From NCBI GenBank assembly GCA_937969515.1, contig CALBVX010000070.1, positions 1 through 64,000 of the forward strand: a DNA stretch of 64,000 nt, read 5' to 3'. The position numbers and the translations under genes are program-made. The notes below the pieces were generated by a model. It did no database searches and had not been told where the DNA came from. It saw nothing but the letters and a program-made list of their open reading frames with translations. Each line of letters opens with the position of its first letter. The first letter of the stretch is position 1. Source of the DNA: an uncultured Croceitalea sp. (lineage in GTDB: Bacteria; Bacteroidota; Bacteroidia; Flavobacteriales; Flavobacteriaceae). This document shows positions 35,099 to 60,874 of the stretch, piece by piece.

Positions 35099-35818
35099 TT
35101 AGTACTTATGTACACTGCCCGCAGCTGATTTTTTCTTTGAAACCTGTGCATCTCCTGAATATGAAATGTCGGCACCACTACTGGCATTGGCCGTTAAAGA
35201 TTCTGAAACATTGACCGAAATATCAGAACCGCTACTTGCGTCAGCATTACAACGTTTGGTAAGTAAAGCTCGTGCCTTGATATCCGCACCGCTACTGGCA
35301 TTAGCATAAAAAACTTCCGTACGGCCAGATATCTTTATATCGGCACCACTACTGGCATCTGCTTCAATTTCTGCAGCAACCACTTCAACCTCTATATCCG
35401 AGCCACTACTTGCATCTAGATCAAGTTTTTCGGTTTTAATTTCATTTTGCGCGATAAGGTCTGCACCACTTGAACTTTTAAGCACTGTTATTTCTGGTAG
35501 AGAGACATAAATATTTTTAGTTGCCCTTCCAATATTTTCCAAAGTGTGCACTCTAAGTTTTCCCTCTTTGATATCGGTTGCAATAAGCTCGATTACATTT
35601 TCATCGGCCTCGACCAGAATCTTAAATTCATCACCTTGCGTAACAAAAACATCAAGGCCTTCGGCCGCGGATATTTCTGTAAACTCTTCTGTAATCTTTC
35701 TGGTTTCTTCGGTAACCACTCCATTTCCTTTTTTGCCATCACCAAAGCTGATATTGACGCATGATGAAGCAAATAGCGCCAAAACAAGGCCAATTGCAAT
35801 TCTTACTAGTGTTGTCAT
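35099..35818 (-). CDS. DUF2807 head-GIN domain lipoprotein
   Basis: 239 aa with a lipoprotein signal (ALFASSC, Cys at about 20) and a DUF2807 (putative auto-transporter adhesin head GIN) domain from about residue 45. The domain is a beta-helix whose turns are visible as repeated SSGADI/SSGSDI segments, six in all (35160-35490). Last gene of a minus-strand unit behind PadR and PspC genes, a common pairing in Bacteroidota linked to envelope stress. The PspC protein upstream also carries a C-terminal periplasmic region. The exact role is unknown. Confidence 0.82.
   Translation of the reverse strand: MTTLVRIAIGLVLALFASSCVNISFGDGKKGNGVVTEETRKITEEFTEISAAEGLDVFVTQGDEFKILVEADENVIELIATDIKEGKLRVHTLENIGRATKNIYVSLPEITVLKSSSGADLIAQNEIKTEKLDLDASSGSDIEVEVVAAEIEADASSGADIKISGRTEVFYANASSGADIKARALLTKRCNADASSGSDISVNVSESLTANASSGADISYSGDAQVSKKKSAAGSVHKY
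35160..35490 (-). repeat. SSGADI beta-helix rung repeats
   Basis: Six short protein repeats of consensus (A)SSG(A/S)D(I/L), about 19-22 residues apart, inside the DUF2807 gene. On the plus strand the DNA shows recurring blocks such as ccactactggcat. The codons vary, so the repeats are kept by protein structure. Confidence 0.75.
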
Positions 35819-35913
35819 GATTGTTGTTTTTTAGATTGATTAAAATTCGTGTTTTTGTTTGTTGTTTTTTTATAAAAGTCACCCAACTGTCGTATCGGGT
35901 GACCGAATTGTAA

Positions 35914-37653
35914 TTAGTTTTTTTCTTCTGCCTTTATTTGAACGCCATCTTCACCAATTTTCATTTCAAAAGAATCTTGTTCGTCATTAATGTCAATGTC
36001 AATTCCGTCTTTATTAATGATTATTTTACCGTTTCCGTCATCGTCGTCATTCCAGTCTTGGTCATCTTCTTCAATAGGACATTCATGGCATTGTAACTCT
36101 CCATCGTCGCCCATTAACCAAGTATGATCTGCAATACTACTTCTGTAATAGTCACGATCATTTTTTGTACTACGACCAATATGTCTCTTGGTAGATTCAT
36201 CGAATGAGATGTAACTTCCGGCAGGGATGTAAATGGTAGAGCGAACCTCTTGTTGTCTTGCTTTATTTGCAGTTGAAGTGGTCAAATAATCATCTAAAAC
36301 AATTTCATTGCCTGAAACCGTATACCCATACGAAACCTCTTTTGCCTTATCTCTAGCTACTTGAAAGGTGCTGCCATGGCTATCTTTGCGCACATTTATG
36401 CGAACAATCGAATCATCTGACTTTTTAATATTAAAGCGCACATCATCGGACACCAAAATTGGGTTATCATTCTCATCATAAGACAATACCATGCGACCAA
36501 AGTGAATTCTATCTGAACCATACTCATATTCATTCTCTTTCATTCTAATACGTATAGTATCGTTTAAATCTGTAACTACTAACTCTGATTTTTCGTTAAT
36601 ACTGCCAACAGTCGCAAATTCTGCTGCCTGACGTATACCTAAAGCTGTTAAGACCCCAATTGAAATTAACCATAAGCCCAATAAAGAGAATTTTGCTATG
36701 TTTCCTATAGACTTTAGATTGGTAACCAAGATTTTTAGCCCTAGGTACAACACAAAGAAAAACGGAATACCAACGGCAAAAAACAAGAGCAATGAAATTA
36801 ACCAAACCGGCGAACCAGAGGTATTTACTATTTCATAAAAGTCTACGCCTGGAAAATGTACAGCATCTATAATACCGACAGAGAATAGTGCAATAAATAA
36901 TCCTATAAGCGAAGTGGCGCCAATTATGATCAAGAGTATGCCAATGAATTTACCAAATACTTTAAAAAAGAACATGATAATATCACCTATAGTATCAAAA
37001 AAGGTTTTGGAGCCGCTTTTAACCTTGTTGCCTACTTTTTCGTAGTCTACACTTTTGACTGCGTCAGAAACATCATCAAACCCCTCTTTAACTTTGCGTT
37101 CTATATTGCTGATGTTTATAGGCTTTCCCGTCATATCTAACTTCTGCGAAGTTGATGAAGCCTCGGGAACCAAAATCCAAAGTAAAATATAAGCTATAAA
37201 TCCAAAGCCTGTAAATACGGCCAAAAGGATAAAAATCAACCTGATCCATACAGCATCGAAACCTAAATAGTACTCAAGACCGGAACATACCCCGCCGATG
37301 TATTTTTGTTCTACATCGCGATATAATTTCTTCGCTTTCGTTTGAGATTTAGCTTCTGATGTTCTAGGCTGGTCTTCAAAGATATCTTCATCGACCATAT
37401 AATCTTCAGGCTGCCCCATTATAGTGATTACCGCGTCTACTTCTTTTTGGGTAATTACCTGACGCTCGTTCTCCATTTTTTCAAGGAAAAGTTCGGCGAC
37501 ACGGGCTTCTATATCTGCTATAATTTCATCGCTTCCTGCGGTACCTGAGAATGATCGTTTTATAGACTCTAAGTAACGCCTAAGCTTATTATACGCCTCA
37601 TCATCGATATGAAAGAGCGTATTTGCTAGATTTATGTTTACTGTCTTGTTCAT
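35914..37653 (-). CDS. PspC domain membrane protein
   Basis: 579 aa. Residues 1-100 are a soluble region beginning MNKTVNINLANTLFHID, common to Bacteroidota PspC proteins. A PspC domain spans about 105-170 (KLYRDVEQKYIGGVCSGLEYYLGFDAVWIRL, then one or two membrane helices). Several further helices follow at about 235-360, then a beta-rich C-terminal half with a very acidic stretch (EEDDQDWNDDDDG) and the end segment DGVQIKAEEKN. In Proteobacteria PspC senses envelope stress; here the PadR overlap (4 bp) and DUF2807 partner suggest a similar envelope role. Confidence 0.85.
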   Translation of the reverse strand: MNKTVNINLANTLFHIDDEAYNKLRRYLESIKRSFSGTAGSDEIIADIEARVAELFLEKMENERQVITQKEVDAVITIMGQPEDYMVDEDIFEDQPRTSEAKSQTKAKKLYRDVEQKYIGGVCSGLEYYLGFDAVWIRLIFILLAVFTGFGFIAYILLWILVPEASSTSQKLDMTGKPINISNIERKVKEGFDDVSDAVKSVDYEKVGNKVKSGSKTFFDTIGDIIMFFFKVFGKFIGILLIIIGATSLIGLFIALFSVGIIDAVHFPGVDFYEIVNTSGSPVWLISLLLFFAVGIPFFFVLYLGLKILVTNLKSIGNIAKFSLLGLWLISIGVLTALGIRQAAEFATVGSINEKSELVVTDLNDTIRIRMKENEYEYGSDRIHFGRMVLSYDENDNPILVSDDVRFNIKKSDDSIVRINVRKDSHGSTFQVARDKAKEVSYGYTVSGNEIVLDDYLTTSTANKARQQEVRSTIYIPAGSYISFDESTKRHIGRSTKNDRDYYRSSIADHTWLMGDDGELQCHECPIEEDDQDWNDDDDGNGKIIINKDGIDIDINDEQDSFEMKIGEDGVQIKAEEKN

Positions 37654-37994
37654 TTTGTTGCTGATTGTTTTGTGTTGGTTACTAAGTTCACTGCGTTTCT
37701 AAGTTCATCCCACGTGCCGTTAAGTTCGTTAAGAAATAACTGGCCCGTTTCGGTGAGTGCATAATATTTTCGTGGTGGCCCTGAGGTAGATTCTTCCCAA
37801 CGGTAGTTGAGCAAACCTGCATTTTTGAGCCTTGTAAGCAAAGGGTAGATAGTGCCCTCTACTACGAGCATCTTAGCGTCTTTTAAGGCTCCTAGAATTT
37901 CTGATGCATATTTATCCTTATCTTTTAAAATGGACAAAATGCAATACTCTAGAACCCCTTTGCGCATTTGTGCTTTTGTGTTTTCTATGTTCAT
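37650..37994 (-). CDS. PadR family transcriptional regulator
   Basis: 114-aa winged-helix repressor: MRKGVLEYCILSILKDKDKYASEIL at residues 10-34, then VVEGTIYPLLTRLKNAGLL (recognition helix) and a C-terminal dimerisation helix. It overlaps the PspC gene by 4 bp and lies downstream of the DUF4870 gene, whose promoter carries a palindrome suited to a PadR dimer at 38740-38760. It probably represses the whole unit, and itself. Confidence 0.9.
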   Translation of the reverse strand: MNIENTKAQMRKGVLEYCILSILKDKDKYASEILGALKDAKMLVVEGTIYPLLTRLKNAGLLNYRWEESTSGPPRKYYALTETGQLFLNELNGTWDELRNAVNLVTNTKQSATK

Positions 37995-46041: not shown

Positions 46042-46291
46042 TTTTTTATTTGTTTTGATTGTTAATGACGAACCAAAAGTGCAACTAGGAGTTTTAAATT
46101 TCTAATGTGTATTACTGAACTGTAGTAATTTATAGTTGAATTGTAATATGGTCTCATTTTTGTCACCTTTTAAAAGGCTTGTAGTTAGGAAGATGTATTT
46201 TATGGAAGTTTCCTCTTACTATTTTATATTTTTTTAGATAAGGTATATTTTATTCAAGGTCCAAGTCATTTTGCTCCGGCCAAAAACTGAT

Positions 46292-52706: not shown

Positions 52707-52777
52707 ACAATCTAGTCGCATAAAATTACAGTTGGGTAATTCTTATTGCCCAAAGAACAAATGTCTTTCGACTTTTG
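52707..52777 (+). promoter_or_regulatory. LytTR-type site A and promoter of the TonB receptor gene
   Basis: Direct repeats ACAATCTAG (52707) and ACAGTTGGG (52728) are 21 bp apart start to start. The second repeat begins 42 bp before GACTTTTG (52770-52777), a -7 box with G for the usual first T. TTG at 52746-52748 is the -33 element, 21 bp from the -7 box. ACAGTTGGG fits the general LytTR half-site [TA][AC][CA]GTTN[AG][TG] exactly. The same geometry recurs at two other promoters nearby. Confidence 0.7.
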
Positions 52778-52795
52778 ACCTGTCAATCAAAAACG

Positions 52796-54964
52796 ATGAA
52801 CATGAAAAACCAAATTACATTTAGCCTTCTTTTTCTAATGGCCTGTGTCTCATCAGCACAGCTTACAGTAAATGGAATCGTCACGGACAAATCAAACGTA
52901 CCTGTAGTGGGTGCCAATGTGTATTTAGAAGGCACCTATGATGGTTCTTCTACCGACGATAATGGTAAATTCTCTTTTGAAACCTCTGAAACGGGCACAC
53001 AAACCCTCATAATTTCCATGTTGTCCTATGAACCACATTACGAGATAGGCGATGTTTCTTATCTCCAAAATTTGAATATTAGGCTTTTAGAAGCGGTAAA
53101 TTCGCTTACTGGTGTAACACTTACCGCCGGAACGTTTGAAGCAGGCGACAATTCAAAAGTTTCTGTTCTTAAACCGTTAGATATTGTTACTACGGCAGGG
53201 GCAGCAGGCGATTTTGTAGCAGCACTGCAGACTTTACCAGGCACCAGTACTGTAAATGAAGATGGGCGTTTATTTGTAAGGGGTGGCGATGCCGGTGAAA
53301 CTCAAGTTTTTATTGACGGTCTTCGGGTTTTTCAGCCTTTTAATGCGACGGCCAATAATATACCCACTAGGGGAAGATTTTCTCCTTTTCTATTTAAAGG
53401 GATTACCTTTAGTACCGGGGGATATTCAGCGGAATATGGCCAAGCCTTATCAAGCGTACTTCTACTGAACACAACCGATGTTCCTGACCAGGAGAAAACG
53501 GATATTTCAATCATGTCAGTTGGTGGTGGTATCGGTCATACCGAAATTTGGGGTGACGAATCTTTGAGTTTTAATACCCAATACATCAATCTTGCACCTT
53601 ATGAATCATTAATACCGTCTAATCAGGGTATTCGTTGGAATAGTCCGTACGAGTCTATCTCTGGTGAGGCAGTCTTCAGAAGTAAAGGAGAGAAAGGTAT
53701 ATTCAAGCTTTACACGGGCTTTAACCACGCTGATCTTGATATTGAGCAAGAGAATATCAATTTTGAGGAATTTGTACGTTTTGAGCTGACGAACAATAAC
53801 CTTTACTTCAATTCTTCGTACAAACACTTTTTTGCAAACGATTGGACTTTAACCTCAGGGGCGAGTCTCTCGTGGGATACCAATGAGATTGGCCTATTTG
53901 AAAACACAATTGATATCAAAGAAACCGGTTCACACCTAAAACTAAAGTTGAAAAAGACTTTTAGTAACCGATTCAATCTTCAATTTGGCACTGAACTATT
54001 TAATATAGACTTTGAAGAAACCTTTAGAACGCCTGATGGCATGCAGTTTAAAAGTGCTTACGATGACCAGTTGCTAGCAGGTTTTGTAGAAAGTGATGTA
54101 TTCTTCAGTAATAAATTTGCTATGAAATTGGGCGCCCGGGTAGATAATACTTCCGTTTTAAATCAATTTAATTTTTCTCCAAGAGTATCCTTAGCATACC
54201 AAAGCAGCGAAAATGGGCAATTTTCTTTTGCCTATGGCGATTTCTATCAAAACCCCCAAAGTAATATTCTTAGATATGATCAAAATTTAAATGTCGAGAA
54301 AACGTCTCATTATATTCTTAACTATCAATATGTCGCTAATGGAAAAACCTTTAGGGCTGAAGCGTACCATAAAGCTTATGACGGTTTGGTAAAATACAAC
54401 ACGGAAATGCCTCAATTTGATTCGCAGTTCAACAATTTAGGCAATGGGTATGCTAGCGGATTGGATATTTTTTGGAGAGATAACAAAAGCATTAAAGACT
54501 TCGATTATTGGGCTTCATACAGCTATCTAAATACGAAACGAGATTTTAGAAATTTCAGGGAGCGTGCTACACCTAATTTTGCGCCTAAGCATAACATTTC
54601 AATTGTCACCAAAAAGTGGGTAAACAAACTAAGATCTCAAATTGGGCTTTCTTATAGCTATGTTTCGGGCAGACCTTATGATAACCCCAATACAGCAGAA
54701 TTTCTGGCTGAAAAGACCAAGGCCTTTAACAATCTTAGTTTTAATTGGGCCTATCTCATAGATCAGCAGAAGATTTTGTATTTCTCTGTAAACAATGTTC
54801 TAGGTTTCAATAATGTAAACAACTATCAATATGCCAACGTCCCTAATGTTGATGGTGTTTTTGAAAGGCAAACGATTAGACCTGCAGCCGATAGTTTTTT
54901 CTTTGTAGGCTTCTTTTGGACCATCAGTAAAGACAAAAAAAGTAATCAGTTAGATAATCTATAG
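52796..54964 (+). CDS. TonB-dependent receptor with carboxypeptidase-like N-terminal domain
   Basis: About 722-aa outer-membrane transporter. Signal peptide, then a CarboxypepD_reg-like domain (residues 20-100: VNGIVTDKSNVPVVGANVYLEGTYDGSSTDDNGKF), a plug domain (about 115-210: FVAALQTLPGTSTVNEDGRLFVRGGDAGETQVFIDGLRV) and a 22-strand barrel to the end. There is no SusD partner, so it is not a typical polysaccharide receptor; substrate unknown. Longer frames begin at TTG 52775, but that codon lies inside the -7 box, so I use the ATG at 52796; the ATG at 52802 is equally possible. A LytTR-type site precedes it, linking it to the kinase/2TM cluster downstream. Confidence 0.88.
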   Translation: MNMKNQITFSLLFLMACVSSAQLTVNGIVTDKSNVPVVGANVYLEGTYDGSSTDDNGKFSFETSETGTQTLIISMLSYEPHYEIGDVSYLQNLNIRLLEAVNSLTGVTLTAGTFEAGDNSKVSVLKPLDIVTTAGAAGDFVAALQTLPGTSTVNEDGRLFVRGGDAGETQVFIDGLRVFQPFNATANNIPTRGRFSPFLFKGITFSTGGYSAEYGQALSSVLLLNTTDVPDQEKTDISIMSVGGGIGHTEIWGDESLSFNTQYINLAPYESLIPSNQGIRWNSPYESISGEAVFRSKGEKGIFKLYTGFNHADLDIEQENINFEEFVRFELTNNNLYFNSSYKHFFANDWTLTSGASLSWDTNEIGLFENTIDIKETGSHLKLKLKKTFSNRFNLQFGTELFNIDFEETFRTPDGMQFKSAYDDQLLAGFVESDVFFSNKFAMKLGARVDNTSVLNQFNFSPRVSLAYQSSENGQFSFAYGDFYQNPQSNILRYDQNLNVEKTSHYILNYQYVANGKTFRAEAYHKAYDGLVKYNTEMPQFDSQFNNLGNGYASGLDIFWRDNKSIKDFDYWASYSYLNTKRDFRNFRERATPNFAPKHNISIVTKKWVNKLRSQIGLSYSYVSGRPYDNPNTAEFLAEKTKAFNNLSFNWAYLIDQQKILYFSVNNVLGFNNVNNYQYANVPNVDGVFERQTIRPAADSFFFVGFFWTISKDKKSNQLDNL

Positions 54965-54967
54965 TAA

Positions 54968-55038
54968 ACAGTTCGTCATTAGAATACTACAATTGGGTAA
55001 TTCATATTGTTTAAAGAGATAATTCAGAATCATATTTG
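54968..55038 (+). promoter_or_regulatory. LytTR-type site B and promoter of the TPR/kinase operon
   Basis: Direct repeats ACAGTTCGT (54968) and ACAATTGGG (54989) are 21 bp apart. The second starts 42 bp before CATATTTG (55031-55038), a -7 box with C for the usual first T; TTG at 55007-55009 is the -33 element. The transcript would have a leader of about 60 nt. Confidence 0.7.
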
Positions 55039-55104
55039 TCATGAAATAAATGTTTCATTGAAATCAATTAGAAGAAAAATCAACAACTATAAAACTACAA
55101 TACA

Positions 55105-55728
55105 ATGAGAAGACTTACACTACTTTTATTATTTCTAACAATATCAAGTTTAAAGGCTCAAGATCAATATTCCATGGGCATGCAAAAGGCAATGGAATTA
55201 TGGTCGGAACAAAAGATTGTGGAGGCATCGAATATGTTCGAACGAATCGCCACGGCCGAAATGGATAATTGGTTGCCGTATTATTATGTAGCCATGGTCA
55301 ATACAACGGCCTCTTTTGGTGAAAAAGACGAACAAAAATTAAAAATGCAACTGAAAAAGGCCAAAGAATATATTGATAATGCAAAAAACATTTCTCCTGA
55401 CAACGCTGAAATTCTAGTGCAAGAAGCAATGATAAATACCGCCTGGATGGCTTTCGATGGAGCTACCTACGGAATGACGCTTTCAGGAAAGAATGTACAA
55501 CTTTATCAAAAAGCGGCTGAACTGGCTCCAAACAACCCAAGAGTCGTGTTCGGAAAGGCAGAGTGGGATATGGGAACAGCACGCTATTTTGGTAAGGATA
55601 CGACGCCTTATTGTAAAGATATTGAAAGGGCTTTACAACTTTTTGCTACTTTTAAACCAGAAACAGAATTTCATCCTAACTGGGGTAAAGAACGTGCTGA
55701 GCAGATTGCTGAAGAATGTAAATCATAG
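55105..55728 (+). CDS. Secreted TPR-like protein
   Basis: 207 aa. A signal peptide (residues 1-18, KAQ) is followed by helical repeats with TPR spacing (MELWSEQKIVEASNMFERIATAEMDNWLPYYYVAMVN; AKEYIDNAKNISPDNAEILVQEAMIN; YQKAAELAPNNPRVVFGKA). Function unknown; by position between the TonB receptor and the kinase it may sense or relay an envelope signal. It lies 3 bp before the kinase gene, certainly co-transcribed. Confidence 0.82.
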   Translation: MRRLTLLLLFLTISSLKAQDQYSMGMQKAMELWSEQKIVEASNMFERIATAEMDNWLPYYYVAMVNTTASFGEKDEQKLKMQLKKAKEYIDNAKNISPDNAEILVQEAMINTAWMAFDGATYGMTLSGKNVQLYQKAAELAPNNPRVVFGKAEWDMGTARYFGKDTTPYCKDIERALQLFATFKPETEFHPNWGKERAEQIAEECKS

Positions 55729-55731
55729 TTT

Positions 55732-57054
55732 ATGAAGAATTTTATTAAGGTTCTTAAGGTTTCGTTGATTATAACGGTCTTTATCTCTTTAATGAATATT
55801 TTCATTTTTAATGATGGTGATTATAGTATCGAAAATGCGATAAGGCAGATTATTATAAGCTTTATATTTTCACTAGCCCTTACTGCTGCCAACTCCTATT
55901 ATTATGACGGTATAAGCTTAAAATACGATTGGGAAAAAGACCCTAAAAAACGCTTATGGTTCGGCGCAATAGGTTCTATAGTAATCACCATTGTTGTTTT
56001 TGCGATTCTCCGATATTTTCTAACGTTTTATTATACTGGTAGGTCATTGGGTGAGTTCATTGAAAAAGAAGAATTCACGCCTTATCTGATAGCACTGATT
56101 ATAACCCTGATTGCTTCACTTTTTATACATACCTTCTATTTTTATAGGGCCCTTCAGAAAAAGCAGGTCAAAGAACAAAAGATAATTGCAGGTACGGCAT
56201 CTGCACGTTTTGATGCTTTAAAAAACCAGTTAGACCCACATTTTTTGTTCAATAGCTTAAACGTGCTTACTAGTCTAATAGAAGAAGATCCACATCAGGC
56301 CCAAAAATTTACCACTTCGTTATCAAAAGTATATCGCTATGTGTTAGAGCAGAAGAACAAAGACTTGGTAACGGTTGATGAAGAATTGAATTTCGCAAGA
56401 ACTTACGTTCGGTTACTAAAAATGCGTTTTGAAGATAGTATCGTTTTTGAGATTCCTGAGGCATCTTCAGATCCTGAAGCTAAAATAGTTCCCCTCTCAC
56501 TTCAGTTGCTACTCGAAAATGCGGTCAAACATAATGTAGTTACTTCGTCAAGACCTTTACGTATAAGCGTTTTTGAAGAGAATGGTAATCTTGTTGTAAA
56601 GAACAATCTTCAAGAGAAACAGGTCGTCAAAAAAAGTAGTGGTGTTGGTCTGCAGAATATTAGGCAGCGCTATGACATTCTCACCGATAGAAAAGTAAGT
56701 ATAGACAAAAAAACTGATGAGTTCAGCGTTGCATTACCCATGTTGAGTAAAAAAGTATCTATACTCGAAACCCAAGAAACACATATTGAAGAAAAGCGCT
56801 ATCTAAAAGCAAAAGAACGTGTAGATGCGATAAAAGGGTTTTACAGTAATCTTTTCGCCTATTTAATTGTTATTCCCTTTCTGTGGTGGCTTAACCTTAG
56901 AACCACGGATTTCTTATGGGCGATTTTCCCTACACTTGGTTGGGGTTTTGGTCTTACCGCCCATGCTATGGAGGCCTTTGGCTACAATCCACTTTGGGGA
57001 AAACGATGGCAAGACAAGAAGATCAAGGAACTTATGGACAAGGAGGATTTTTAA
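55732..57054 (+). CDS. LytS/YehU-type sensor histidine kinase with C-terminal 2TM domain
   Basis: 440 aa. Four membrane helices (about residues 8-28, 38-60, 78-100, 115-137) lead to a His_kinase domain whose phospho-acceptor motif is QLDPHFLFNSLNVLTSL near 166-182; the ATP-binding N box is LLLENAVKHNVV near 260, with GVGLQNIRQRY near 305. Residues 356-440 are a 2TM domain (AKERVDAIKGFYSNLFAYLIVIP ... LGWGFGLTAHAMEAFGYNPLWGKRW), closely like the five free-standing proteins that follow. The kinase core is thus held between membrane segments on both sides. Cognate regulator: the LytTR protein at 58849. Confidence 0.9.
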   Translation: MKNFIKVLKVSLIITVFISLMNIFIFNDGDYSIENAIRQIIISFIFSLALTAANSYYYDGISLKYDWEKDPKKRLWFGAIGSIVITIVVFAILRYFLTFYYTGRSLGEFIEKEEFTPYLIALIITLIASLFIHTFYFYRALQKKQVKEQKIIAGTASARFDALKNQLDPHFLFNSLNVLTSLIEEDPHQAQKFTTSLSKVYRYVLEQKNKDLVTVDEELNFARTYVRLLKMRFEDSIVFEIPEASSDPEAKIVPLSLQLLLENAVKHNVVTSSRPLRISVFEENGNLVVKNNLQEKQVVKKSSGVGLQNIRQRYDILTDRKVSIDKKTDEFSVALPMLSKKVSILETQETHIEEKRYLKAKERVDAIKGFYSNLFAYLIVIPFLWWLNLRTTDFLWAIFPTLGWGFGLTAHAMEAFGYNPLWGKRWQDKKIKELMDKEDF

Positions 57055-57071
57055 AGTTCAAGTTCAAAATC

Positions 57072-57142
57072 ACAATCCATCCTTAAAAAAATACAATTCG
57101 GTCACACAGTTTTTTAAACCCCCCTATCTCTTAAGACATTTG
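57072..57142 (+). promoter_or_regulatory. LytTR-type site D and promoter of the 2TM operon
   Basis: Direct repeats ACAATCCAT (57072) and ACAATTCGG (57093) are 21 bp apart, and the second begins 42 bp before GACATTTG (57135-57142), a -7 box with G for the first T. The -33 triplet here is TTT instead of TTG. The first 2TM gene begins 25 bp after the -7 box. Confidence 0.65.
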
Positions 57143-57167: not shown

Positions 57168-57446
57168 ATGGAAAATAGAGACGATCTCAGATATCAAAAA
57201 GCAAAAGAGCGCGTAGAAGAGATAAAGGGATTTTACAGTAATCTAACGGCTTACGCAATTGTTATTCCCCTTCTGGCATATTTAAATTATCAAACTACGT
57301 ATTTTCCATGGGTTATATTTCCGGCATTAGGATGGGGTCTTGGGCTTTTATTTCATGGAATATGCGCTTTTGGTTATAATCCATTGTTTGGGAAAAGCTG
57401 GGAACAACGAAAAATTCAAGAATTAATGAACAGCGATGAGTTCTAA
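57168..57446 (+). CDS. 2TM domain protein 1
   Basis: 92 aa, essentially one 2TM domain: KAKERVEEIKGFYSNLTAYAIVIPLLAYLNYQT (first helix), FPWVIFPALGWGLGLLFHGICAFGYNPLFGKSWEQRKIQELM (second helix and amphipathic end). It is the closest in sequence to the C-terminal domain of the upstream kinase, suggesting it arose from it. First gene after its own LytTR-type promoter. Function not established; association with the kinase through like-with-like membrane contacts is the natural hypothesis. Confidence 0.88.
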   Translation: MENRDDLRYQKAKERVEEIKGFYSNLTAYAIVIPLLAYLNYQTTYFPWVIFPALGWGLGLLFHGICAFGYNPLFGKSWEQRKIQELMNSDEF

Positions 57447-57502: not shown

Positions 57503-57790
57503 ATGGAATTCAATACAAATGACACTAAATATAGAAGGGTATTAGATAGAGTTGCCAAACTAAAACGGTTTTATGGACAAGCTTTGAGAGGTTTGTTGGC
57601 GATTCTAATAACAGGTGCAATTAATTATTACCTTAACGAATGGAGTCATCCCTGGTTTTTATGGGTAGTTTTCGGCGTTGTGGTCTTGACCATTTTAAGG
57701 GCTATAAGACTCTTTGGCGCAGCTATTTTATTCGGAAAAGACTGGGAAGAACAAAAAGTAAGACAATTCATGGAAAAAGATAATTTTTAA
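57503..57790 (+). CDS. 2TM domain protein 2
   Basis: 95 aa. Same fold: YRRVLDRVAKLKRFYGQALRGLLAILITGAINYYLNEWSHPWFLWVVFGVVVLTILRAIRLFG then GKDWEEQKVRQFMEKDNF. It is the most diverged copy: the GWGxGLxxHA segment of the second helix is lost, replaced by VVVLTILRAI. Gap of 56 bp to the previous gene, with no clear promoter. Confidence 0.85.
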   Translation: MEFNTNDTKYRRVLDRVAKLKRFYGQALRGLLAILITGAINYYLNEWSHPWFLWVVFGVVVLTILRAIRLFGAAILFGKDWEEQKVRQFMEKDNF

Positions 57791-57834: not shown

Positions 57835-58137
57835 ATGGAAACCAATAGAGCTGAAAACAAATATCAACGAGCAAAAGAACGTGTTGAAGAGCTAAAAAAG
57901 TTCTACGGTCATTTAACCTCTTACATTTTGGTAATTGGCAGTCTAGCTATATTAAACTATTGGGTAGATGGATGGCGATATATGTGGTTTTTATGGGCTG
58001 CTTTTGGCTGGGGTATAGGTATTTTGGCCCATGCTTCACGTACATTTAATCTCAACCCTTTCTTTAATAAAGAATGGGAGCAAAGAAAGATCAAGGAGTT
58101 TATGGAAAAGCAGGAAGAACAAGAAAAATGGAGGTAA
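57835..58137 (+). CDS. 2TM domain protein 3
   Basis: 100 aa with the complete pattern: YQRAKERVEELKKFYGHLTSYILVIGSLAILNYWVDGW, MWFLWAAFGWGIGILAHASRTFNLNPFFNKEWEQRKIKEFMEK, plus a charged tail. A purine-rich GGAGG for the next gene lies across its stop codon. Confidence 0.87.
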   Translation: METNRAENKYQRAKERVEELKKFYGHLTSYILVIGSLAILNYWVDGWRYMWFLWAAFGWGIGILAHASRTFNLNPFFNKEWEQRKIKEFMEKQEEQEKWR

Positions 58138-58139
58138 TC

Positions 58140-58460
58140 ATGAAAAATTATAATAAGGATAAGTACGCTAAAGCAAAAAAGAGGGTGGATGAGCTCAAAG
58201 GGTTTTATATACATGCCACTATTTACACGGTAATCAATGCTTTTATTTTGGTAAATATTTTTATACAAAGTGGATACAATGGCACCGGTTTCTGGCAGAT
58301 TGAACATTTTTTCACTTTGTTTTTCTGGGGTATAGGCTTGTTTTTTCATGCTTCAAAGGTATTTAGGTTAAATCCTTTTTTCAATAAGGATTGGGAGCAA
58401 CGCCAGATAGAGAAGTATATAGAAAAAGATAGGGAAGAAGCTGATAAATTCACAAAATGA
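58140..58460 (+). CDS. 2TM domain protein 4
   Basis: 106 aa: KYAKAKKRVDELKGFYIHATIYTVINAFILVNIFI, then EHFFTLFFWGIGLFFHASKVFRLNPFFNKDWEQRQIEKYIEKD. I start at 58140, where GGAGGT stands 5 bp before the ATG (a strong ribosome site, unusual for this genome); the longer frame from 58074 only adds residues read out of frame from gene 3. Overlaps gene 5 by 4 bp. Confidence 0.87.
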   Translation: MKNYNKDKYAKAKKRVDELKGFYIHATIYTVINAFILVNIFIQSGYNGTGFWQIEHFFTLFFWGIGLFFHASKVFRLNPFFNKDWEQRQIEKYIEKDREEADKFTK

Positions 58461-58807
58461 CAACTGAAAATAAACAACCAATTAGTCCTCTCATTAGAGC
58501 AAAAGAGAGGGTGAGAAAACTAAAATCGTTTTATAAACATCTAACGGCTTATATTCTTGTAAGTGCCATGCTGCTTATACTGTCGGGCAGGGTGACATTC
58601 ATTCTTTTAAGCAAAGAGGCGCTTGGCAATCCAGAGTTTTTAGAATGGATCAATTGGAACCTTTTTGGAACTCCGATTATATGGGGTATAGTTGTGCTGA
58701 TACATGCAGCTTCTGTTTTTATGAATAGTCCGTTTAAAAAGTGGGAAGAAAGGCAAATCCAGAAATTTATTAGAAAAGATAAAGAGGAAACGGAAAGATA
58801 TCGTTAG
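58457..58807 (+). CDS. 2TM domain protein 5
   Basis: 116 aa: RAKERVRKLKSFYKHLTAYILVSAMLLILSGRVTFILLS, a longer loop than in the others, then WNLFGTPIIWGIVVLIHAASVFMNSPFKKWEERQIQKFIRKD. Start overlaps the stop of copy 4 (ATGA) and the response-regulator gene follows 41 bp later, so copies 4-5 and the regulator are made together. Confidence 0.86.
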   Translation: MTTENKQPISPLIRAKERVRKLKSFYKHLTAYILVSAMLLILSGRVTFILLSKEALGNPEFLEWINWNLFGTPIIWGIVVLIHAASVFMNSPFKKWEERQIQKFIRKDKEETERYR

Positions 58808-58848: not shown

Positions 58849-59604
58849 ATGAACGTAATTGTAATAGAAGACGAAAAACCGGCGGCAAGAAGATTGGCCA
58901 GGCTATTGGCCGAACTTGATGTTCAAGTTTCTACAATGTTGCATTCGGTAGAAGAATCTATCGAGTGGTTTCAAAACAATGAACACCCCGAACTGATATT
59001 TTTAGACATTCAACTTTCAGATGGGCTTTCATTTGAAATTTTTGATGTTATCGAGGTTAAAAGTGCCATCATATTTACTACCGCTTTTGATGAATATGCA
59101 CTACAAGCTTTTAAGTTAAACAGCATTGATTATTTGTTAAAACCCATTGATGATGAAGACCTAGAAAAAGCGGTAAAAAAGTACCGTGATTTTAAGCCTG
59201 AAAAAGATAGAATTTCGGTAGATTTTGAAGACATAAAAAAACTGCTTGTAAACCCCTTGGAAAGGGAGTATAAAAAACGATTTACGGCTAGGGTAGGGCA
59301 GCACTTAAAAATTATTAATGCAGATGAGGTTGAATGTTTTTACAGCGAGAACAAAGGTACTTATGCCGCAACTATAGATGGTAGAAATTATTTGTTGGAT
59401 ACCACATTAGAGAATTTGGAAGAAGAGCTGGCCCCAAAAATATTTTTTAGGGTAAGCCGAAAATTCTATGTGAACATTAATCACATTAATGACATTATTT
59501 CGTACACCAATTCAAGGCTTCAAATCAAGTTGAACCACTTTAAAGAACAAGAAATCATCGTTAGTAGAGAGCGTGTCAAAGATTTTAAGCTTTGGTTGGA
59601 ATGA
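58849..59604 (+). CDS. LytTR family response regulator
   Basis: 251 aa. Receiver domain at residues 1-120: acidic pocket IEDEKPAA, phospho-acceptor Asp in LIFLDIQLSDGLSFE near residue 51, Thr in FTTAFDEYALQAF and Lys in YLLKPID. LytTR DNA-binding domain at about 150-250 (RFTARVGQHLKIINADEVECFYSENKGTY, FFRVSRKFYVNINHIND, VSRERVKDFKLWLE). Partner of the kinase at 55732. LytTR domains bind paired 9-bp direct repeats about 21 bp apart, exactly the spacing found at three promoters of this cluster. Confidence 0.93.
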   Translation: MNVIVIEDEKPAARRLARLLAELDVQVSTMLHSVEESIEWFQNNEHPELIFLDIQLSDGLSFEIFDVIEVKSAIIFTTAFDEYALQAFKLNSIDYLLKPIDDEDLEKAVKKYRDFKPEKDRISVDFEDIKKLLVNPLEREYKKRFTARVGQHLKIINADEVECFYSENKGTYAATIDGRNYLLDTTLENLEEELAPKIFFRVSRKFYVNINHINDIISYTNSRLQIKLNHFKEQEIIVSRERVKDFKLWLE

Positions 59605-59683: not shown

Positions 59684-60874
59684 CTACTTTTCATCAATAC
59701 GATTGTCATCAAATGCAGAGGGCAATAACTTCGGTATTAATTTTATAAAGATAGGTAATAAAACGGCTCCTCCGGGCAATATAAAAATAGCTAATGAGGG
59801 AATAGATTTAAAAATATCCAGTAATTGTAATTGTATTTTTTTTCGCTCCTCTTCATTTAATTCTTTAGTGGTAGCTTTTGTCAATAATAAAACCAATTCT
59901 TTACTTTCAGACAATTCTTTCTTTAATCTTTTACTATTTCTTAGAATTATTTTACTGACATTTTTCGTCATTCCATCGTAGAATTTAGAAGCCAAATTGG
60001 TGTCCTTTAAATAGGGTATTTTTTCAAAATTTTCTTCAAAGAAAATCCGTACATTTTTTAATGCATTTTCGATGGTGTTTTTTTCATGATTTAGGTCCTT
60101 CCCAAGACGGTCTATGTACTCCGATTCTGTATAGTCTAATGAGTGGTCTTCCCAAACGGTCAGGCAAGCGATATCGAGTAGGTATTTTTTTTCGCAGGAG
60201 GTAAAGTTAGTGTAAAGAATGTTTAGATCGTTATTGTCAAAATTTGCATTTTCGATATCAACATAGGTTAATGAAGAAGCAAGAAGTTGAATTAGTTTTT
60301 CATCTGACTTACGGGTTTTTTTAGAATTCAAGGCCTGATAAGCGATATTTACGGTCACATATTCCAACAGTTGCGCGTGTCGAATCAAATTGGTTTTATC
60401 CGATAGATAGGCCCTAAATAACAAAACATCTATAAAAAGCAGTGAATTGGTGATGCTATTTCCGAATGCTCTGTTAAATATATTGCCATTCAAATAGATT
60501 CTTGAATCTATCAATTGCTCTAACTGGGCATCTGTCTTACTTCCGGTAAGTATTTTATTTAAAAAAGAAATTTTGCCTAGGTCTAGGGTATTGTAATAGC
60601 TAAATACCGTATTTACAAACTCTTCAAAATTAATGTTACCCGTATCAAAGCGATAGGAGCAGTATAGCGCGGATAACAGATTGATTTTTGCTACTTCGTC
60701 TTCAGATAATTTATGCTCCGTTGCTATAAATGAAGGTACGGCCAAATGCACACCATAAATAAACCCGTTTAATAAAAGGTCATCATAAAGGTCATCAAAA
60801 TCTTTGTAAGCTTTGGAGTATTCATCTGCTAAAGAGCCAAATTTAGAAATCCATCCTGAGGCTGAAGGGTTCAT
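59684..60874 (-). CDS. LETM1-related biofilm-associated protein
   Basis: 396 aa, mostly helical. The N-terminal part (MNPSASGWISKFGSLADEYSKAYKDFDDLYDDLLLNGFIYGVHLAVPSF) is typical of the Flavobacteriaceae proteins annotated as LETM1-related. The C-terminal 60 residues (ELNEEERKKIQLQLLDIFKSIPSLAIFILPGGAVLLPIFIKLIPKLLPSAF) match the membrane-associated core of mitochondrial LETM1, with one or two hydrophobic helices. Function in bacteria is not settled; ion exchange or biofilm links have been suggested. Single gene. Confidence 0.8.
   Translation of the reverse strand: MNPSASGWISKFGSLADEYSKAYKDFDDLYDDLLLNGFIYGVHLAVPSFIATEHKLSEDEVAKINLLSALYCSYRFDTGNINFEEFVNTVFSYYNTLDLGKISFLNKILTGSKTDAQLEQLIDSRIYLNGNIFNRAFGNSITNSLLFIDVLLFRAYLSDKTNLIRHAQLLEYVTVNIAYQALNSKKTRKSDEKLIQLLASSLTYVDIENANFDNNDLNILYTNFTSCEKKYLLDIACLTVWEDHSLDYTESEYIDRLGKDLNHEKNTIENALKNVRIFFEENFEKIPYLKDTNLASKFYDGMTKNVSKIILRNSKRLKKELSESKELVLLLTKATTKELNEEERKKIQLQLLDIFKSIPSLAIFILPGGAVLLPIFIKLIPKLLPSAFDDNRIDEK

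Follow-up and report, generated by a model that had tools for sequence, protein, structure and literature searches.

In this study, a 64,000-nt stretch of DNA from an uncultured Croceitalea sp. of the Flavobacteriaceae (GenBank assembly GCA_937969515.1, contig CALBVX010000070.1, positions 1 to 64,000; hereafter the window) was analyzed for promoters with paired direct repeats of the LytTR type and for the genes behind them. The source assembly comprised 2.09 Mb and was 54% complete. The + strand carries the gene of a TonB-dependent receptor with a carboxypeptidase-regulatory-like domain (52796..54964, start ATG at 52796 or 52802), an open reading frame for a 207-residue protein (55105..55728), and the gene of a LytS-type histidine kinase (PF06580) with a C-terminal 2TM domain (PF13239; 55732..57054). 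The 207-residue protein was earlier labelled TPR and is called TPR-like here; a Pfam search with it gave zero matches. Five genes for small 2TM-domain proteins come next (57168-57446, 57503-57790, 57835-58137, 58134-58460, and 58457-58807; PF13239 in each). They are followed by the gene of a response regulator with a receiver and a LytTR DNA-binding domain (58849..59604; PF04397, 5e-21), the proposed binder of the repeats. The H, N, and G boxes were present in 60/60 kinase orthologues, and D53 and K98 of the regulator did not vary among 40 aligned orthologues and paralogues. The PF06580 kinase with these boxes and the receiver with its conserved Asp are the components of a LytS/LytTR two-component system.

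Three promoters with paired repeats precede these genes on the + strand. The promoter of the TonB receptor gene (52707..52777) has the repeats ACAATCTAG at 52707-52715 and ACAGTTGGG at 52728-52736, a -33 region at 52747-52750, and the -7 box GACTTTTG at 52770-52777 (profile E 1.8e-8, matrix score 46.9). The promoter of the TPR-like/kinase operon (54968..55038) has ACAGTTCGT at 54968-54976, ACAATTGGG at 54989-54997, and the -7 box CATATTTG at 55031-55038 (profile E 2.4e-11, matrix score 50.4). The promoter of the 2TM/LytTR cluster (57072..57142) has ACAATCCAT at 57072-57080, ACAATTCGG at 57093-57101, TTTT at -33 (57112-57115), and the -7 box GACATTTG at 57135-57142 (profile E 4.2e-11, matrix score 53.4). 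The first-pass annotation had reported these three repeat pairs, and all were found where it placed them, each with a period of 21 bp and with repeat 2 exactly 42 bp before the -7 box. Its description of the repeats as identical was overstated. The half-sites read ACARTY/ACARTT with similar flanks, and only the layout is identical.

The proposed regulon of three promoters held for those three and fell short in number, as two promoters on the - strand had been overlooked and five were found. The fourth (46074..46144) has the -7 box CACTTTTG (profile E 1.1e-8, matrix score 41.4) and lies 32 nt upstream of the start codon of a DUF2141 gene (PF09912; 45625..46041, - strand). The fifth, weaker site (35841..35911) reads ACAATTCGG-N12-ACAGTTGGG with the -7 box GAATTTTA, which ends in TTTA (matrix score 29.0, profile E 0.46). 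It lies between a pspC gene and a DUF2807 gene (head GIN, Toastrack superfamily; 35099..35818, - strand). The DUF2141 and DUF2807 genes are proposed members of the regulon. Upstream of the DUF2807 gene are the PspC-Toastrack gene (35914-37653, - strand) and a PadR-type regulator gene (37650-37994, - strand), and neither is preceded by a site among the best matrix scores of the window. After the fifth site, the next position in the matrix scan of the window scored -4.1, and the reversed control scored -9.3. A profile was built from 74 sites. In the source genome, the four strong sites took its top ranks and the next match had E 0.046; the E-values of these four are partly by construction, because they are among the 74 sequences behind the profile. 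The pattern given in the first-pass annotation was also scanned over the source genome. It gave 4 matches, all in the window, and the reversed pattern gave 0.

The four strong sites share one layout: a 9-bp repeat, 12 bp, a 9-bp repeat, 10 bp, a 4-bp -33 region, 19 bp, and an 8-bp -7 box. The fifth site equals them in length and repeat positions. The spacer between the repeats is 12 bp in all five, and the gap from repeat to -33 is 10 bp, with a T-rich -33 region. The 42 bp from repeat 2 to the -7 box is therefore the sum of 9, 10, 4, and 19 bp, that is, a LytTR layout on a Bacteroidota promoter. With a repeat spacing within 11-13 bp, about 10 bp to -33, and a linked LytTR regulator, the sites have the features of LytTR direct-repeat promoters. 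ComE is counted among the regulators of such promoters. In the part of the literature consulted, Zou et al. 2018 (PMC6193735) describe LytTR-controlled operons whose 9-bp repeats are in most cases separated by 12 bp and strongly tend to lie 10 bp upstream of -35, and for AgrA, binding to a pair of direct repeats in front of P2 and P3 is described (PMC4227749).

The conservation of the sites was investigated at 60 loci that were located through the kinase, independently of the motif. These were taken from the top of an identity-ranked list of 194 kinase loci, with several passed over for short contigs. Untrained counting of hexamer pairs in these loci gave 47 pairs at a spacing of 15, whereas no other spacing between 0 and 44 gave more than 6 (range 0-6); with reversed hexamers, 2 pairs had a spacing of 15. 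Of the 47 pairs, 37 had the -7 core at a distance of exactly 37 nt. From the same loci, 37 strict sites were used to train a weight matrix, which detected 125 sites scoring at least 21, three at 0-4, and a best reversed control of -0.4. The 125 sites are not independent, because the matrix was trained on the same loci; the hexamer spacing counts are. Genes of five classes followed 123 of the 125 sites (TonB 19, TPR-like 34, DUF2141 15, kinase 17, 2TM 38), and the remaining two had none of the five within 700 nt. With the operon head traced, 60/60 kinase operons had a site within 700 nt of it; 15 of these operons belong to genomes in which the strict pattern has no match. The TonB genes found in these loci had a site in 19/19. 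Conservation at orthologous loci, which the first-pass annotation had named as a check, was borne out. Measured from the -7 box, the first aligned codon lay at a median of 28-31 nt in TonB, TPR-like, and DUF2141 genes and of 35 nt in the first 2TM gene; where the kinase was the first recognised gene, the median was 130 nt. Five 2TM distances that came out negative in the initial count are an artefact, produced by the extrapolation of a fragment.

An orthologue of the LytTR regulator was found on the same strand in 58/60 kinase loci. In one exception (L072, G222), the regulator lies with a relocated 2TM cluster that has its own site (L200). In the other (L075), the contig ends 1.2 kb past the kinase. 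In the genome of L075 (G004), the kinase (G004:C4) and a 2TM cluster (L242, G004:C1) are on different contigs, and the cluster has a strong site (57.2). In 11/60 loci, a DUF2141 gene heads the TPR-like/kinase operon after a site (e.g., L076, L097, and L122). A convergent LETM1-type gene (59684-60874, - strand) lies downstream of the LytTR gene in the window. A LETM1 relative was found in 48/60 kinase loci, and in 39 it was convergent and at most 300 bp from the LytTR gene.

The distribution across genomes was determined with a strict pattern, consisting of the half-site pair plus the -7 box at set spacings. The control was the reversed pattern, tallied by eye in the family sample. The genus sample (8 genomes) gave 9 strict matches and 0 in the control. 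The family sample (249 genomes) gave 227 strict matches in 139 genomes, and the control gave 4. The phylum sample (247 genomes) gave 26 strict matches in 15 genomes, and the control gave 3; the 15 comprised 12/27 genomes from this family, 2 of the same class but other families, and a single one from elsewhere, whose match lies in a tandem-repeat run. As an approximate consensus, ACAATTCATCC-N10-ACARTTCRGTA is followed by a T run and then by SANNTTTG. Matches by chance in AT-rich DNA could be imagined, since single hexamers are common and, with one mismatch allowed, 11 repeat pairs occurred in the window against 4.2 expected. However, the 227 matches against 4 reversed and the spacing peak of 47 against 0-6 make chance vanishingly improbable, as the first-pass annotation had held, and this explanation was rejected. 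A further explanation takes the likeness of the promoters as a functionless by-product of recent duplication. The three + strand promoters do lie within 4.4 kb of each other. However, conservation across the 60 loci is seen in the repeats, the T run, and the -7 box, while most spacer positions vary, and the site is present at unrelated, far-apart genes. Promoter duplication is contradicted by the family-wide pattern; it was rated as highly improbable and rejected.

The strict sites were compared with the presence of the two-component system, using thresholds of E <= 1e-60 for kinase orthologues and E <= 1e-10 for regulator homologues. The 2TM-kinase orthologue was found in 194/249 family genomes. 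A strict site was present in 139/194 kinase-positive and 0/55 kinase-negative genomes (Fisher 1.3e-24); the zero is valid for the strict pattern only, because matrix sites occur in two kinase-negative genomes (G013 and G181) and whole kinase-negative genomes were not matrix-scanned. Regulator homologues occur in 27/55 kinase-negative genomes, at most 49% identical and in some rows by the receiver only. The difference was kept with these 27 genomes alone as the comparison group (p = 9.9e-14) and when that group was confined to the 19 with a size of 2.5 Mb or more (p = 3.4e-10). Since these 27 genomes have a regulator homologue and no strict site, the sites track this system and not LytTR proteins generally.

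Sites away from the kinase were also analyzed. At E <= 1e-4, the profile found 80 sites in 25 genomes, with 1 to 6 per genome. Distal loci were selected because they hold a site; 35 were read, some of them kinase loci. Among their 45 sites, 38 precede genes of TonB (12), DUF2141 (12), TPR-like (6), DUF2807 (6), and 2TM (2) proteins, with a small gene between site and DUF2807 in one of the six cases; 7 lie before other genes or have no nearby gene. Relocated genes retain the site, as seen for the 2TM/LytTR cluster of G222 (L200), TonB genes (L217, L219, and L224), and DUF2141 genes. The gene order PadR, PspC, DUF2807 is found in a relative, and the same set is present in the window. Of the seven further genomes in the genus, six have a site scoring 29-41 between PspC and DUF2807; for the remaining one (G002), the position of the gene was not found. 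A DUF2807 search matched all of 40 chosen kinase-positive genomes, and the best 30 loci were read. In kinase-negative genomes, 23 loci were considered and 3 were dropped as the gene was not refound. Across the family, the association was looser than in the genus, with the site present at DUF2807 in 18/30 kinase-positive against 2/14 kinase-negative loci with PspC adjacent (p = 0.008). Sites also occur before serine-hydrolase-like genes (L167 9252, PF00144; L210 5110 and L222 4956, both by eye), which are possible extra members. Divergent site pairs, their 5' ends separated by 7-18 bp, were seen at L163 5043/5061, L081 2868/2875, and L221 5031/5049; those of L163 and L081 face back-to-back TonB and DUF2141 genes.

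Taken with the LytTR layout, the co-occurrence of 139/194 against 0/55, and the retention of sites at relocated genes, the first-pass proposal of a LytTR regulon around the kinase/2TM cluster was supported. The paired repeats are very probably binding sites of the 58849-59604 LytTR regulator in an autoregulated LytS/LytTR regulon. Several observations weigh against this assignment. No strict match was found in 55/194 kinase-positive genomes. At least 8 of the 227 strict matches come from paralogous systems or are unusual in their flanks (G010:C88, G048:C2, G099:C2, G108:C18, G118:C3, G124, G142:C2, and G197:C1:2673096), and such a match is the sole strict match in G108, G124, and G142. The site precedes the first 2TM gene in 36/60 kinase loci only, two loci having no 2TM gene in the stretch, and it precedes DUF2807 in no more than the 18 of 30 kinase-positive genomes given above. 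Kinase-negative G013 has a full matrix site before DUF2807 (40.8), while G261 of the same genus has the kinase; kinase-negative G181 has a weaker one (24.5). When solved structures were searched with the regulator alone, there were 29 matches, and the stretches listed for them fall in the receiver. With an alignment of the regulator as the query, there were 117 matches; among the best 60 of these, one matched the LytTR part (3d6w), and none was a DNA complex by name. As no LytTR-DNA complex is among the listed structure matches, no contact code is claimed. The DUF2807 sites of G013 (L244) and G181 (L249) are perhaps relics of a lost system.

Alternatively, the main binder of the sites could be a different LytTR regulator, or several whose specificities overlap, instead of the linked one. 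Relatives hold several LytTR regulators, paralogous sites share the layout and the ACARTT core, and G013 retains a site without a kinase orthologue. However, this explanation was considered unlikely in view of the 27 kinase-negative genomes whose regulator homologues, at most 49% identical and some receiver only, go with no strict site. The seven other LytTR loci of the source genome point the same way: none has a site of the main class, with one match at 19 (paralogous-like) and one at 3; the contig of L134, one of the seven, stops within the kinase and does not reach the upstream region. The site at L133 6787 of the source genome probably belongs to the paralogous class. Five paralogous kinase/LytTR systems were found in relatives (L139 5683, L140 5230, L141 4787, L142 5016, and L143 5812). 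Their sites have the same ACARTT core and 21/42 layout with different flanks, e.g., ACAATTCAATACAT, and their regulators are 38-44% identical to the 58849 regulator. With core, period, and distance in common and flanks differing, different LytTR regulators seem to share a frame and to differ in flanking letters. Class A and class B regulators differ at several conserved LytTR-domain positions. Sites of the paralogous class lie upstream of a gene for about 480-550 residues near kinase and LytTR genes; two of its products were searched against Pfam, with no match.

The promoter elements were then compared with those of other Bacteroidota promoters. Position -12 was G or C in 113/125 kinase-locus sites (G 67, C 46, T 6, A 6), in contrast to 15/91 other candidate -7 boxes predicted in the same loci (T 57, A 19, G 8, C 7). 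In 70 distal sites, it was G or C in 62 (G 35, C 27, T 5, A 3). Genus g143 is an exception, with four of its listed sites ending in TACTTTTG. Housekeeping Bacteroidota promoters (TTTG / TAnnTTTG) have T at -12, from which the LytTR-type sites depart. The -33 region of the 125 sites keeps a T run (T at site position 41 in 123/125), and the G of TTTG is rare. In the part of the F. johnsoniae promoter study consulted, T at -12 is nearly invariant and the -33 motif is weak as well (PMC6847099). The non-consensus -12 base suggests a weak basal promoter, and the poor base would make the promoter dependent on an activator. The conserved G/C at -12 is newly noticed, and it could make the unusual Bacteroidota sigma factor activator-dependent.

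The opposite sign of control was also considered, in which the regulator represses the promoters or the repeats merely set a basal level. The sign of regulation is not readable from sequence alone. However, the repeats end 10 bp before -33, where published LytTR activators bind according to the sections consulted (PMC6193735 and PMC4227749), and the weak basal promoter suggested by the -12 base also speaks against repression, which has only a slim chance of being correct. Activation by the LytTR regulator is favored because the repeats lie directly upstream of a weak-looking -33/-7 promoter.

On these grounds, we infer binding, phosphorylation, activation, and a single transcript from the 2TM genes to the regulator gene. 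The LytS-type kinase (55732), ending in its 2TM domain, would phosphorylate the LytTR regulator. A regulator dimer would bind both repeats, two helical turns apart, directly upstream of the -33 region, and would aid RNA polymerase at a promoter with the conserved non-consensus -12 base. The regulator would act on the TonB receptor gene, on the TPR-like/kinase operon, on the 2TM/LytTR cluster, on DUF2141, and, less regularly, on DUF2807 beside pspC. By acting on the kinase operon and the 2TM/LytTR cluster, it may close a positive loop. The kinase tail has its domain in common with the free 2TM proteins, which might tune the kinase, although this is a guess. The link of PspC with Toastrack proteins, in the part of the source consulted (PMC11237479), suggests an envelope-related signal.

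The proposed regulon was compared with known systems. LytTR regulatory systems (LRS) are not known to have a receiver domain or a kinase. Both are present here, and membership in the LRS was therefore rejected. In the consulted part of the same comparison of operons (PMC6193735), an LRS is a LytTR regulator with its membrane inhibitor, and the promoters of AgrA and of the LRS regulators HdrR and BrsR resemble the present sites in 9-bp direct repeats, a spacer that is mostly 12 bp, and a strongly preferred 10 bp to -35. They differ in that the promoter here is of the Bacteroidota -33/-7 type, the T at -12 is mostly G or C, and the regulon content is other. The LRS-like operons of Bacteroides (B. 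thetaiotaomicron and B. ovatus) likewise pair a LytTR regulator with a membrane protein, and repeats precede the -33 region, which in the two operons has a 19-bp gap before TATCTTTG; however, these have 11-bp repeats, 11-bp spacing, another sequence, a transmembrane regulator, and a retained T at -12 (PMC6193735). In BtsS/BtsR and YpdA/YpdB, as far as the sources consulted go, a LytS-type kinase is also paired with a receiver-LytTR regulator, whereas here the kinase ends in a 2TM domain and there are free 2TM proteins and TonB/DUF2141/DUF2807 targets. Lia/PSP envelope-stress systems also tie Toastrack-type (DUF2807 superfamily) and PspC proteins to a signalling system; here a LytTR site stands before DUF2807, whereas LiaR is a winged helix-turn-helix regulator (PMC11237479, in part). 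No description of this regulon was found in the portions consulted of open-access literature on LytTR in Bacteroidota, Flavobacteriaceae, or Flavobacterium, on 2TM-domain proteins, and on DUF2141, and it is absent from the LytTR passages of PMC5395568, PMC7440613, PMC10057207, PMC10269533, and PMC10197871.

LytTR domains are among the prominent protein domains of Flavobacteriaceae in one comparison, from the part consulted (PMC7440613), and the literature found, as far as consulted, says little on LytTR function in this family. The results define a LytTR regulon, with a consensus and an exact layout, for a large family in which the kinase is present in 194/249 genomes. They point to a small, widely shared control circuit, perhaps with a cell-envelope role. 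Common control would thereby be assigned to 2TM, DUF2141, and DUF2807 proteins, which are families of unknown function, and to a TonB receptor. Tentatively, and with some doubt, this may be a widespread envelope-stress circuit of Flavobacteriaceae, in which the 2TM kinase and its free 2TM relatives set the threshold of the LytTR regulator, promoters with a non-consensus -12 base serve TonB, DUF2141, and Toastrack genes through the activator only, and paralogues are told apart by their flanks. If this is true, paralogous LytTR systems with the same frame and differing flanks would provide a readable LytTR code.

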